A stretch of DNA of 10,263 bases from contig JAATVK010000022.1 of assembly GCA_014523485.1 (NCBI GenBank), forward strand, positions 1-10,263, in the 5' to 3' direction. A model generated the notes under the pieces. That model searched no databases. It saw only the letters and a program-made list of their open reading frames with translations, and was not told the DNA's origin. Origin of the DNA: Nitrososphaerales archaeon TH5894. Its GTDB lineage: Archaea; Thermoproteota; Nitrososphaeria; Nitrososphaerales; Nitrososphaeraceae. A program made the translations under genes and the position numbers. This document shows, in pieces, positions 494 through 10,263 of the stretch (the stretch's first letter is position 1; each line of letters opens with the position of its first letter).

Positions 494-853
494 CTAACGA
501 ACTTTAGAACCTAATTCAACTTTTTCCCCTTTATCTATTGTTAAAAAAATTGGTTTTCCCTCCATTCCATCTAATGCTAAAATCATTCCTTTTGATTCTA
601 TATTTCCTATAGTCCGAGGTGAAAGATTTGTACATACAATTACTAACTTTTCTTCCAATTCTTCCGGTTTGTAATACATGGCAGCTCCCACGACTACTAT
701 TCTTTCCTCAGAACCGAGATCTATCTCTGCTTTGTAAACTTTGTTCAACTTCGGTAAATATTCAATTTTTTTTATCTTTCCAAGTTTTAAGACAATTTTA
801 CTAAAATCTTCAATGGAGATATTCTCAGATTCAGTTTTCATATCGCTTGCCAT
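494..853 (-). CDS. tRNA-binding OB-fold protein (MetRS beta subunit / Trbp111-like)
   Basis: A 119-residue protein that resembles the C-terminal tRNA-binding domain of methionyl-tRNA synthetase, made as a separate polypeptide as in many archaea (MetRS-beta, Trbp111, EMAP family). Seen: a short charged N-terminus, then the OB-fold pattern with KIEYLPKLNKVYKAEIDLG, then VVGAAMYYKPEELEEKLVIVCTNL, then the SPRTIGNIESKGMILA segment typical of the family. Known of the family: it binds the outer corner of tRNA without sequence specificity and helps MetRS in trans; here that role is inferred. Length fits a free-standing domain. The start is uncertain. ATG at 853 gives MASDMK, while ATG at 841 gives MKTESE. 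A TATA-like box at 869-876 would suit a leaderless start near 841, and one at 883-889 would suit 853. No synthetase gene lies nearby. Confidence 0.85.
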   Translation of the reverse strand: MASDMKTESENISIEDFSKIVLKLGKIKKIEYLPKLNKVYKAEIDLGSEERIVVVGAAMYYKPEELEEKLVIVCTNLSPRTIGNIESKGMILALDGMEGKPIFLTIDKGEKVELGSKVR

Positions 854-1469: not shown

Positions 1470-1513
1470 CATGTTATGATTTCAACGAAAATATATGAAC
1501 AATACAACTATAT

Positions 1514-1568
1514 TCGGTCAGATACCCTAGTGCTTTCATCATGTTTCAGAATAGGATTTCATCATTCC
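1514..1568 (-). ncRNA. C/D-box guide sRNA (2'-O-methylation guide)
   Basis: Read on the minus strand this has the complete archaeal C/D sRNA layout: C box ATGATGA (1565-1559), a 9-base guide AATCCTATT (1558-1550), D' box CTGA (1549-1546), a 3-base spacer, C' box ATGATGA (1542-1536), a 14-base guide AAGCACTAGGGTAT (1535-1522) and D box CTGA (1521-1518). All four boxes match consensus perfectly (RUGAUGA, CUGA), which is unlikely by chance in order and spacing. Known of the family: L7Ae binds the C/D and C'/D' kink-turns, Nop5 and fibrillarin are recruited, and the target base paired five positions upstream of D or D' is 2'-O-methylated. GG at 1568-1567 and CC at 1517-1516 may form a short terminal stem. 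Guide lengths of 9 and 14 straddle the usual value of about 12. Outer ends are approximate. Confidence 0.85.
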
Positions 1569-1586
1569 ATTTATCTTTATTTGATT

Positions 1587-1599
1587 CTATATTAAAAGT
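1587..1599 (-). promoter_or_regulatory. TATA-like promoter of the C/D sRNA
   Basis: CTTTTAATATA on the minus strand, centred near 1593, is about 26 bases before the expected sRNA 5' end near 1567. The position is what an archaeal TBP/TFB promoter would need, and it supports independent transcription of the sRNA away from the ATPase cluster. Confidence 0.5.
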
Positions 1600-1671: not shown

Positions 1672-2319
1672 ATGTCTTTAGAAGAAAAAATATTTGACAA
1701 AATTTTTTCTTCAGGTTTATCTGGAGTGAAAAAAACTGATCTAACTAAAGAATTTTCATCAGTAAATCTGGATAATATCTTGAACACATGGATAAAACAA
1801 AACAAAATTATTATAACAAAAAAGGGGAGTACAAATTATTGTTGGCATAAAGAAGGTTATTTTCAATATCTCTTGGATTCCGATCCAAAATTCAAATATA
1901 CTTTTGAAATACTAAAAGAAATTCAAATTTCTTTTCAAAATTTATCCACTTCTTTTGATAAACATGTAGAAAAAATAGAAGGTAAGATGATTGTCATAAT
2001 GGATTCAATCTTGGCAACAACTACCAATAAAAATGCCTTTGAAAATAGTATTTCTAATCCACAAAAGGTAATTAATTTACAAAACTTTAGTGAAGATTTT
2101 GATTTAACTATATCCAAATACTCTGATTCAATAGGATGGGTTCCTTTAGCCACTCTTAGAAACGATCTCTCTCATAAATATGAGATTTCTGAAAAGGAAT
2201 TCTATGACCTTGCTGAACAATTAGTTAATGAAGATAGATCAAAATATGAATTATCTACAGGTGGGAATGAGGGAATTATGATTCGTGGCTTGGTATATGG
2301 TTATGTAAGGTGCTTATAA
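1672..2319 (+). CDS. Two-winged-helix protein, partner of the adjacent AAA+ ATPase
   Basis: A 215-residue soluble protein; I do not recognise a named family. The N-terminal part (about residues 3-63) reads as a winged helix: helices around KIFDKIF and KKTDLTKEF, a recognition-type helix NLDNILNTWIKQ, then a KIIITKKGSTNYCWH wing. A middle helical stretch (about 75-115) could be a short coiled coil. The C-terminal part (about 155-214) is a second winged helix: VPLATLRNDL, SEKEFYDLAEQLV, then a hairpin ending GIMIRGLVYGYVRC. This architecture suggests binding to DNA or docking to a partner. The ATPase gene starts at the codon after this stop, so the two products are probably made together and may act as a complex; this is inference. 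There are no enzymatic motifs. It could be a regulatory or loader subunit, or a sequence-specific adaptor for the ATPase. Confidence 0.8.
   Translation: MSLEEKIFDKIFSSGLSGVKKTDLTKEFSSVNLDNILNTWIKQNKIIITKKGSTNYCWHKEGYFQYLLDSDPKFKYTFEILKEIQISFQNLSTSFDKHVEKIEGKMIVIMDSILATTTNKNAFENSISNPQKVINLQNFSEDFDLTISKYSDSIGWVPLATLRNDLSHKYEISEKEFYDLAEQLVNEDRSKYELSTGGNEGIMIRGLVYGYVRCL
2307..2312 (+). promoter_or_regulatory. Shine-Dalgarno-like site deciding the TTG start of the ATPase
   Basis: AAGGTG lies inside the last codons of the winged-helix gene, seven bases before the TTG at 2320. It matches the archaeal anti-SD well enough to support internal initiation at the unusual TTG directly after the upstream TAA. 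Confidence 0.5.
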
Positions 2320-3930
2320 TTGTATCCATATAACCTTGACAAAAATCCTTTTCCAAGTAATCCTACACCAAATCTAGAGGATGCTCACATTTTAGGTGGA
2401 AAAAGGCATCAAGAGTCTAAAAATTCTATTTTGTCGTGTATTGAAGATCTTGTAAACCTATCGGAAACAAGTGACGCTAGTGAAAAATTCAGAATAATTA
2501 CTGTTATTCAAGATGTAGGTTCAGGAAAAACACATCTCACACTTAATATAAGAATTTCAGGAATAAAGGAAAAAGCAATCATTTCTTATCTTGACATGTC
2601 ACAAATATACCCAAAAAATATTCCAAGTATTTATCAAGCTATGATTAGTGGGTTTGAACCTGAGTACTTGTATACTTTGAAAAAAGAATTACTTTATTAT
2701 CTAAAAGATCGAATTAAATCAGATAACAAAATTGCAAAAAAAATATTTAAATTAGGATTTTTTGAATCGTTATCAGGTAAAGGTATTGATAATAAAATTC
2801 TTCAGATATTAGAAAATAGATCGGAGCCTAATTTAAGATACATTGATAATATTCTTGATGCGGATTTTTCGAAAAATGACATATCTATAATTAAAACTAT
2901 CATAGAGAATCAATTTGAAAATAATGAATCAATCACTTTAATGGATATGATAAATCGCCTTTCAACTTTATCTAAAATTAATTTAAAATTATTTAATAAA
3001 ATTTCTTTGTATCAATTCGACGAATTTAATAATAATAAAGAAACGCTTTCATTTATGAAGGCTATTATTAATGCTCATATACCCAATACGGTCTTAATGC
3101 TAATTCTCACTCCTTCCTCATATCTAAAGATAGCCTCTGATGATAGTTCAGTTTATGATAGGCTGGAGAAAGCTAATTATAAAATTGATCTCGCTGGATC
3201 AAATTCTTTCGAGGAAATATCCGATATAGTATTAGAATATATTAATTTTTATAATCTACCTACTACTATAACAGATGATCAAAGAAAGGAACTTTTCTCA
3301 CAAATAAAAATATTATATGAAGATTTTGATTTTAGAAATATAAGATCTATATTGAATATAATGTATAGTGCGTTTGAAACAGCAAGTCACAAAAAAATGT
3401 CCATAATAAGTGAACAAATTTTGGATGAAACATTACGTAAAACCTATCCAGGTTTAAAAATAAAGGGAAGCCTGGTAGATATATCCATTTCTGATTATAT
3501 TAAAATTAAAAATCATATCGACTCCACTAGGGATCTAAAGAAAGAAATTGTAAACTCATTGAGAGAATTAATAAATTATCTTCACCGACATAATATAAAA
3601 TGTAAATATGAAGATTATTTACCTTTAGAAGAAGAAGCCGTCAACATAATCTACAAAGATAATAGTGGTTCAAAATCTCAAATCACGATGCTTTTAAATG
3701 AATCAACTTTAACTAACATGAAAAGTACAGTCTTTAATATTGGAACAACAGTGAAGGATGTTAACTATCCAAAGGTTACAACTACAAAAAACGATTCTGT
3801 ATCTATTAATTTAGATCGATCAAAAATAATTGATATCCTATATATTTATGATAAAATTAAACGTAATCTGCATACTATGGCTGATACCAATAAAATATTT
3901 TTATTAGCAAAATCGATAAACCTCTATTGA
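2320..3930 (+). CDS. AAA+ family P-loop ATPase of unknown system
   Basis: A 536-residue ATPase, probably AAA+ of the broad ORC/Cdc6, ExeA/TniB and STAND-like assortment. The N-terminus YPYNLDKNPFPSNP resembles the Y-x-L-x-x-N-P-F opening of ExeA/TniB-type ATPases. Walker A is at residues 64-71 (QDVGSGKT), with Gln where the first Gly is usual. Walker B is at 228-236 (ISLYQFDEF; D234, E235). A sensor-1-like LILTPSS is at 261-267, followed by a YDRL motif (279-282). The stretch between Walker A and B is unusually long, about 160 residues and mostly helical, a lineage-specific insertion or lid. The C-terminal 200 residues are charged with no recognised domain. The start is TTG, immediately after the upstream TAA and preceded by AAGGTG. 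Coupling to the winged-helix gene suggests an ATP-driven DNA-associated complex. The function is unknown; defence, chromosome organisation and replication-linked roles are all open. Confidence 0.85.
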   Translation: MYPYNLDKNPFPSNPTPNLEDAHILGGKRHQESKNSILSCIEDLVNLSETSDASEKFRIITVIQDVGSGKTHLTLNIRISGIKEKAIISYLDMSQIYPKNIPSIYQAMISGFEPEYLYTLKKELLYYLKDRIKSDNKIAKKIFKLGFFESLSGKGIDNKILQILENRSEPNLRYIDNILDADFSKNDISIIKTIIENQFENNESITLMDMINRLSTLSKINLKLFNKISLYQFDEFNNNKETLSFMKAIINAHIPNTVLMLILTPSSYLKIASDDSSVYDRLEKANYKIDLAGSNSFEEISDIVLEYINFYNLPTTITDDQRKELFSQIKILYEDFDFRNIRSILNIMYSAFETASHKKMSIISEQILDETLRKTYPGLKIKGSLVDISISDYIKIKNHIDSTRDLKKEIVNSLRELINYLHRHNIKCKYEDYLPLEEEAVNIIYKDNSGSKSQITMLLNESTLTNMKSTVFNIGTTVKDVNYPKVTTTKNDSVSINLDRSKIIDILYIYDKIKRNLHTMADTNKIFLLAKSINLY

Positions 3931-4670: not shown

Positions 4671-4688
4671 CATTCTCTATAAAGAATG
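4671..4688. terminator. Hairpin between the cluster and the convergent tRNA-Gly
   Basis: CATTCT at 4671-4676 and AGAATG at 4683-4688 form a 6-bp stem with the loop CTATAA. It begins seven bases after the stop codon at 4664 and its right arm touches the tRNA 3' end. It may serve as a bidirectional 3'-end signal for the two convergent units, or help define the tRNA 3' trailer. There is no T-tract in it. Confidence 0.3.
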
Positions 4689-4761
4689 CGACGACCGGGA
4701 TTTGAACCCGGGTTACCAGATTGGCAATCTGATGTCCTAGACCAAACTGGACGATCGTCGC
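4687..4761 (-). tRNA. tRNA-Gly (anticodon GCC)
   Basis: A complete 75-base cloverleaf read on the minus strand. The acceptor stem GCGACGA/TCGTCGC is fully paired, the D stem is GTCC/GGAC, and the anticodon stem TCAGA/TCTGG carries loop TTGCCAA with anticodon GCC (4725-4723). A 4-base variable loop, T stem CCGGG/CCCGG with loop TTCAAAT, and discriminator A at 4687 follow. There is no intron and no encoded CCA, so CCA is added after transcription. It decodes GGC and GGT glycine codons. It is convergent with the ATPase cluster. Confidence 0.96.
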
Positions 4762-9460: not shown

Positions 9461-9536
9461 GCTCCGATGGTGTAGTCCGGTTAAGCATTTCGCCCTCTCA
9501 AGGCGACGATCCCGGGTTCAAATCCCGGTCGGAGCA
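9461..9536 (+). tRNA. tRNA-Glu (anticodon CTC)
   Basis: A complete 76-base cloverleaf: acceptor stem GCTCCGA/TCGGAGC; D stem GTGT/GCAT with G-T pairs; anticodon stem TCGCC/GGCGA with loop CTCTCAA, anticodon CTC at 9497-9499; variable loop CGATC; T stem CCGGG/CCCGG with loop TTCAAAT; discriminator A at 9536. There is no intron and no encoded CCA. It reads the GAG codon; a TTC isoacceptor must exist elsewhere for GAA, which AT-rich genes use heavily. Confidence 0.96.
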
Positions 9537-9703: not shown

Positions 9704-10263
9704 TTATTTGATATTTGGAAAAAATTTCTTTAGATTAATCTTATAATAAATAATTTCTCCTCTTCTCTCAATTACGGCAATAATTGCTTCTTTCCCCATT
9801 TTTTCTATTGAACGAATATTTTCGAATAATTGATTTGCCTTGATACTGATACCGTCATTTATACCAAAAATTACATACTTTGCAGCTTTTCTGGAATATT
9901 CGCCTCTTTCATACACTCGAAAATCATTCCCAAATCCGAACCCTTCTTTGGCAATATAACCACGTGTACGAAGATCCCGAAATATTACAAATTTTGTAAA
10001 TATAGATAGGTCAATTTTCAATAATATTTGGAGAAAATTTGAAAAATCCAGTATAGTATTTTGTTTTTTAAGTACAAGTCTTTTAGAATAGAGCAAAAAA
10101 AGAGCCTCATAATTTTCTAGGATATAGATATCTTTGATTTTTTCTCCATACCCTTTACTTCTTAATTGATCTTGGTGTTTAGCCGACTCAATCAGGATTA
10201 CCCCCTTTGAATCTAAAATACCTTCTATTACAAAAGAAAATTCTGTATCGATATCATTTGACA
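9704..10263 (-). CDS. endA: tRNA-splicing endonuclease subunit (partial, 5' end outside the window)
   Basis: A subunit of the archaeal tRNA-intron endonuclease, which cuts bulge-helix-bulge structures in pre-tRNA and pre-rRNA. The frame stays open to the window edge, showing 185 residues. The N-terminal domain carries the usual LENYEALFLLYSKRLVL segment (about 10070-10125). The C-terminal catalytic domain has RDLRTRGYIAKEGFGFGNDFRVYERG, then KYVIFGIND and EAIIAVIERRGEIIYY. Two catalytic-triad positions are present: Tyr in FRVY (codon 9911-9913) and Lys in GKEAIIAV (9791-9793). The catalytic His, normally in a G-H-S-x-Y context, is missing; RKAAKYV stands there (Ala codons 9881-9886). In heteromeric archaeal enzymes one subunit is structural and lacks catalytic residues, so this may be that beta-type subunit; this is inference. 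The TTG at 10096 is an internal codon, not the start. Confidence 0.88.
   Translation of the reverse strand, partial: SNDIDTEFSFVIEGILDSKGVILIESAKHQDQLRSKGYGEKIKDIYILENYEALFLLYSKRLVLKKQNTILDFSNFLQILLKIDLSIFTKFVIFRDLRTRGYIAKEGFGFGNDFRVYERGEYSRKAAKYVIFGINDGISIKANQLFENIRSIEKMGKEAIIAVIERRGEIIYYKINLKKFFPNIK

Follow-up and report, generated by a model that had tools for sequence, protein, structure and literature searches.

Comparison with known C/D box sRNAs

The C/D box sRNAs of archaea such as Sulfolobus, Pyrococcus and Pyrobaculum are RNAs of about 55-60 nt that carry boxes C, D', C' and D, a k-turn stem and a guide adjoining box D, with N-plus-five geometry at the target. A locus on the minus strand of the 10,263-nt stretch of Nitrososphaerales archaeon TH5894 DNA analysed here (the window, one contig of a 2.36 Mb assembly in 281 contigs that is 87.5% complete) is like them in all of these respects. 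It differs from them in the length of its D guide, which is 14 nt here (15-17 nt as parsed in the sister family f9, apparently Nitrosopumilaceae) as opposed to the 10-12 nt published for archaeal C/D sRNAs (PMC7994747), and in having a detected target for one guide only. Guide and target are kept over two families, whereas the seven-species set described in PMC7994747 is reported to have no site common to all. Other C/D sRNAs with one orphan guide likewise have an rRNA site for one guide and none detected for the other; unlike in those sRNAs, the orphan side in f9 covaries with the D guide as an internal helix, and the parts of PMC7994747 considered here contain no passage on hairpin, self-complementary or mutually complementary guides. 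In the 2012 survey PMC3486863, in the part considered, the Thaumarchaeota of the data set are without annotated snoRNAs, and the same parts of PMC7994747, a 2021 review of archaeal C/D sRNAs, make no mention of Thaumarchaeota, of names in Nitroso- or of Cenarchaeum.

The Rfam families sR5 (RF01304), sR9 (RF01312) and snoPyro_CD (RF00095) have the generic C/D box layout in common with the window locus. Their scores at the window were 25.1, 24.8 and 26.5 bits, respectively, all below the corresponding gathering thresholds of 40, 36 and 45. When 17 loci from relatives were compared with Rfam, the only match at threshold was a tRNA, and a further 20 loci (14 from f9, four from family f19 and two from the window's own family) gave none at threshold. 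The sRNA represents a new family within the known C/D box kind, with no Rfam model for it at threshold in the window or in 37 loci from relatives.

Anatomy of the sRNA locus

Read from the sequence, bases 1568 to 1516 of the minus strand are GG-A-AUGAUGA-AAUCCUAUU-CUGA-AAC-AUGAUGA-AAGCACUAGGGUAU-CUGA-CC (Table 1). The initial annotation had described a C-D'-C'-D order with four perfect boxes on this strand, and these were confirmed at the places that it gave. Its identification of the locus as a C/D box guide sRNA is likewise supported: sequence, structure and conservation all place it among the archaeal C/D box sRNAs. The unusual guide spacings to which it had drawn attention are real: the 18 aligned Nitrososphaeraceae sequences all fit a 14-nt D guide, and the length of the D' guide ranges between 8 and 11 nt. 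Guide bases are numbered here from n1, the base adjoining box D.

Table 1. Coordinates of the sRNA and its parts in the window
Feature	Position	Strand	Basis
C/D box sRNA gene, ~55-60 nt (span of family model)	1512..1571	-	match to model R1, 76.1 bits, the window sequence itself being among those used to build R1
TATA-like promoter word UUUUAAUAUAG	1587..1597	-	sequence; 9/11 positions the same in window and three congeners
Terminal stem, 5' side, GG, pairs with 1516-1517	1567..1568	-	pairing maintained through two-sided changes in relatives
Box C, AUGAUGA	1559..1565	-	sequence read, comparison with relatives
D' guide region AAUCCUAUU, 9 nt, variable among relatives	1550..1558	-	no rRNA target found
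Box D', CUGA	1546..1549	-	sequence read, comparison with relatives
D'-C' spacer, AAC, 3 nt	1543..1545	-	sequence read
Box C', AUGAUGA	1536..1542	-	sequence read, comparison with relatives
D guide AAGCACUAGGGUAU, 14 nt; n2-n9 complementary to 23S UACCCUAG; n5 opposite C2441	1522..1535	-	rRNA comparison
Box D, CUGA	1518..1521	-	sequence read, comparison with relatives
Terminal stem, 3' side, CC	1516..1517	-	stem partner of GG 1567-1568; covariation in relatives

A degenerate four-box pattern was matched once in the window and not once in 3000 windows simulated with a first-order Markov model. The C-D'-C' pattern had three matches in the 2.36 Mb assembly, consisting of the window locus and two matches within one 15-nt tandem repeat, and none in the reversed control. 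This repeat (TGATGAGTATTATGC, G000:C135:9155-9205 (+)) imitates the C-D'-C' box pattern. In genome G006 there were two matches and also two in the control, so the C-D'-C' pattern is not fully specific by itself; it also fails to match the sRNAs of G016 and G028, in which the D' boxes deviate.

Conservation among relatives

BLAST homologues of the locus were found in 18 of 61 genomes, its own included; none was found in G001 (69% complete), which is one of six genomes in the genus. The C-D'-C'-D layout is present in all 18 homologues, with some boxes deviating: D' is CUGC or CUGU in three, box C is AUGAAGA in one, C' is AUGAGGA in one and C' is without its first R in one. Identical positions were counted across the window and three congeners (a fourth congener found, L005, was excluded). 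All 24 positions in box C (7/7), box D' (4/4), box C' (7/7) and box D plus the CC (6/6) were identical in these sequences, as were 13 of the 14 positions of the D guide. The D' guide (4/9), the D'-C' spacer (0/3), positions 1569-1586 (9/18) and the downstream sequence (17/36) were less conserved. A loss of boxes in relatives beside a kept spacer, which the initial annotation had raised, is the opposite of this pattern. The upstream sequence at 1600-1660 is also fairly conserved among these four, with 47 of 61 positions identical.

A family model, R1, was used to search the order with Infernal's stricter filters. It had matches in 127 of 300 genomes, comprising 59 of 70 from the window's own family (f1, Nitrososphaeraceae) and 68 from f9; two of the 11 Nitrososphaeraceae genomes without a match are more than 90% complete. 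The exact guide core and box D are present at 57 of the 58 f9 loci examined, the exception (L226) being without the exact core. Across the class, 252 of 400 genomes had a match to a model R2 (55 of 62 from f1, 187 from f9, one from f2 and nine from f19), and genomes of f2, f3, f7 and f10 are among the misses listed for it. Following re-examination of 14 weak R2 matches, the CUGGGGUA core was found in ten, including eight of the nine from f19, and was missing from the f2 match. The f19 sRNAs are identical to ones from records that carry the names Geothermarchaeota and Candidatus Scotarchaeum. Carriers of the sRNA include Candidatus Nitrosocosmicus sp. SS, Candidatus Nitrosotalea devanaterra and Nitrosopumilus sp. 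b1. The sRNA family is real and is conserved across two families.

Some R2 matches were rejected. L291 and L293 lack the CUGGGGUA core and are probably other C/D sRNAs rather than members of this family, while L294 and L285 were not accepted as sound members on account of extra inserted bases and damaged boxes, respectively. L285 (1501-1564 (-) in G266), in which boxes C and D are damaged and the guide is altered, is possibly a decaying copy. Of 71 pattern matches in genome contigs, five were bacterial and were taken as chance.

Terminal stem and folding

When the 5 nt on each side were paired as a terminal stem in an alignment of 51 distinct sequences, 77.6% of cells were paired, compared with 59.2% after shuffling. 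Both sides had changed in 66 cells, compared with a shuffled mean of 28.3; none of 500 shuffles was as high, and slid controls were lower. The stem had four pairs with double changes and 14 pair types; neither number was above shuffles, 497 and 339 of 500 of which, respectively, were as high. In a second alignment (61 sequences), 87.5% of terminal stem cells were paired. The terminal stem covaries in relatives. With respect to the k-turn, a GG/CC stem is present in the window and a covarying stem in relatives, and the G.A pairs are implied by the box sequence only. The window RNA folds no better than shuffles (z 0.41); the corresponding values for relatives were 0.81 (L010), -2.87 (L111) and -3.03 (L105).

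The D guide and its proposed 23S rRNA target

23S rRNA sequences were recovered from eight of 14 Nitrososphaeraceae and 11 of 16 f9 carrier genomes. Because no rRNA was found in the window's own assembly, the target for the window was read from a congener (G004). The D guide pairs with the region UUACCCYAGGGAUAAC of 23S rRNA, beside the peptidyl-transferase centre. In Nitrososphaeraceae this site reads UUACCCUAGGGAUAACAGG in 8/8 genomes, with n2-n9 paired in all eight; in f9 it reads UUACCCCAGGGAUAACAGG in 11/11 genomes and n2-n10 are paired, with Watson-Crick pairs throughout in nine and a G-U pair at n10 in two. Over the 19 genomes, the mean score at this column was 8.31 of 9 (n2-n10), compared with 6.27 at the next column and 7.5 for the best of 40 permuted guides, and the other 16S and 23S columns were rejected as D-guide targets because of their lower scores. 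The match for f9 alone is significant (8.89 at the best column and 6.9 at the next), and none of 60 permuted guides was as good. For Nitrososphaeraceae alone, the best column (7.5 of 9, compared with 6.6 at the next) is not significant, as 12 of 60 permuted guides reach at least 7.5. In the window's family, the assignment of this target therefore depends on homology with f9 together with the co-change at n7.

This co-change involves the Y of the target region. It is U (UUACCCU) with guide n7 A in 8/8 Nitrososphaeraceae and C (UUACCCC) with n7 G in 11/11 f9 genomes, and in Scotarchaeum (f19) UUACCCC is found with guide ACUGGGGUAU, again matching. Guide and target have thus changed together between two families, in one base and a single event. 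The Nitrososphaeraceae duplex consists of only eight contiguous Watson-Crick pairs, with n1 (U against U) and n10 (A against G) unpaired; the n10 A is invariant in this family, and no 23S partner accounts for it. At n5, Watson-Crick pairing at the 23S site was found in 19/19 genomes. This base faces the second C of the CCC run, which is C2441 in E. coli numbering when anchored on what we take to be A2451 within GGGAUAACAGG, and which corresponds to position 2443 in the 2906-nt 23S gene of one strain. As judged from these sequence comparisons, the D guide probably directs 2'-O-methylation of 23S C2441. On the anatomy, conservation, stem covariation and guide-target co-change of the locus, we consider it very likely that it is an archaeal C/D sRNA gene with its own TATA promoter, the D guide of which would direct this methylation.

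Alternative interpretations

The D guide could instead be aimed at the 790 loop of 16S rRNA (GAUACCCGGGUAGUCC). Guide bases n1-n6 and n9-n10 are complementary to 16S AUACCC..GU, the two bases in between giving a mismatch and a wobble, and a 16S target would account for the invariant n10 A of Nitrososphaeraceae. However, every copy of the 16S site that was found is identical (12 loci, two of them from Nitrososphaeraceae, plus L019 and L020), while guide n7 and n10 differ between families. Since 16S GAUACCCGGGUAG is the same in both families where found, the change at n7 is unexplained by 16S; the n7 difference agrees with 23S and disagrees with 16S, and on this ground the 790 loop was ruled out as the target, which leaves this reading very improbable. 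We attach only marginally more weight to a different target in the window's family that escaped detection (a tRNA or other RNA), with the 23S match kept only in f9. The frequency with which permuted guides equal the 23S match in Nitrososphaeraceae alone is in keeping with such a target, as is an invariant n10 A that has no 23S partner. Against it stand the co-change of n7 with the 23S base from one family to the other and the complete pairing of n2-n9 in all eight genomes. Furthermore, there is no common perfect 10-base target: the n1-n10 match AUACCCUAGU was rejected because its sole copy in G028 lies inside the sRNA itself, and there was no excess over the reversed control in any of eight genomes.

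About equally improbable is that the sRNA assists the folding of 23S rRNA as a chaperone close to the peptidyl-transferase centre and directs little or no methylation. The duplex is short, at eight pairs, and chaperone roles have been proposed for archaeal C/D sRNAs (PMC4644070; PMC7994747), but the Watson-Crick pairing of n5 at every 23S site argues against this role, and duplexes of 8-10 bp have been reported to be highly methylated (PMC7089733, citing Yang 2016). It is scarcely credible that the locus is a functionless pseudogene or a chance box pattern. Its stem is a short GG/CC and the window sequence alone folds like its shuffles, but the boxes and the D guide are selectively conserved, the sRNA is found in two families and its stem covaries.

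The D' side and its pairing with the D guide

No consistent rRNA site was found for the D' guide in the 19 genomes (best mean 2.39 of 7; 3.29 for Nitrososphaeraceae alone and 4.33 for f9 alone). In archaeal C/D sRNAs a second functional guide, before box D', is usual though not universal. The f9 D' guide is instead complementary to bases n8-n14 of the D guide; in this helix, considered by itself, 81.0% of cells were paired, compared with 67.9% after shuffling. The alignment used for this helix had 61 rows, including eight from Nitrososphaeraceae and two from Geothermarchaeota. Both sides had changed in 54 cells, compared with 26.8 after shuffling (0/500 shuffles as high), and slid controls had 14.6-39.2% of cells paired; five pairs had double changes and there were 14 pair types, both within the range of shuffles. 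In a duplex test of the D' and D guides, 27 of 32 distinct f9 pairs had p<=0.05 (mean z -2.93), as did five of 30 distinct Nitrososphaeraceae pairs (mean z -0.69), and the two Geothermarchaeota sequences gave p values of 0.11 and 0.05. The D' region of the window could form a 6-pair duplex with its own D guide (p about 0.02, for one sequence), the family overall being without such a signal. At L111 151-213 (-) and at other f9 loci, the C/D sRNA is self-paired through a covarying helix that joins its D' guide to the 5' portion of its D guide.

Pairing of n11-n14 with 23S rRNA is at most scattered in eight of 11 f9 genomes, while n12-n14 also pair in G111, G075 and G214. Given the scattered pairing in these eight, the conservation of n11-n14 in f9 is more likely due to the internal helix, and the D' side there is probably structural. 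A more speculative proposal, to which we give perhaps a modest chance, is that the D' arm does not act as a guide but imitates the 23S target within the sRNA, pairing with the D guide and thereby gating its access to the peptidyl-transferase region. In that case the sRNA would be ancient and widely kept in Nitrososphaeria, with the gate retained as a covarying helix in Nitrosopumilaceae, possibly retained in Geothermarchaeota too, and relaxed in Nitrososphaeraceae.

Promoter, protein partners and predicted mechanism

A TATA-like box upstream of the 5' end had been noted previously, and it was located as UUUUAAUAUAG, whose centre precedes the GG, at the expected 5' end, by about 24 nt. Among 35 Nitrososphaeraceae and 56 f9 sequences, TATA-like words cluster 35-26 nt upstream of box C, with 7 and 16 of the 35 and 22 and 24 of the 56 in the two 5-nt bins. 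In the literature, a promoter motif of this kind is given for approximately 20% of archaeal C/D genes (PMC7994747). Transcription from this promoter would probably yield an RNA of about 55-60 nt, which is predicted to form a C/D k-turn together with a C'/D' k-loop and to bind L7Ae, Nop5 and fibrillarin. Of the genes for these three proteins, fibrillarin (PF01269) was searched for, and it was found in 9/9 genomes searched, including the window's own (G000:C210:1545-2189, E-value: 5.5e-87). In the assembled RNP, n2-n9 of the D guide would pair with 23S UACCCUAG, a site immediately 5' to the peptidyl-transferase loop, and the N-plus-five rule would place the 2'-O-methyl group on C2441, the second C in the run.

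Neighbouring features in the window

The ORF at 2320-3930 (+) codes for 536 aa, including a P-loop-like stretch (VIQDVGSGKTHL), and is preceded by a 215-aa ORF at 1672-2319 (+); neither had a Pfam or PADLOC match at E 0.01. Downstream of the sRNA and on the same strand, 494-853 (-) encodes a small protein with a tRNA-binding domain (PF01588). A tRNA intron endonuclease catalytic domain (PF01974) is encoded at 9704-10096 (-), and the window carries genes for tRNA-Gly(gcc) (4687-4761 (-)) and tRNA-Glu(ctc) (9461-9536 (+)).

Significance

This sRNA stands out for a guide and target of long standing, a D guide with a fixed length of 14 nt and, in relatives, a D' arm that pairs within the RNA. A guide kept for so long contrasts with the picture of rapidly changing archaeal guides, and its co-change with the 23S target provides a precise prediction of a methylation site for ammonia oxidisers.
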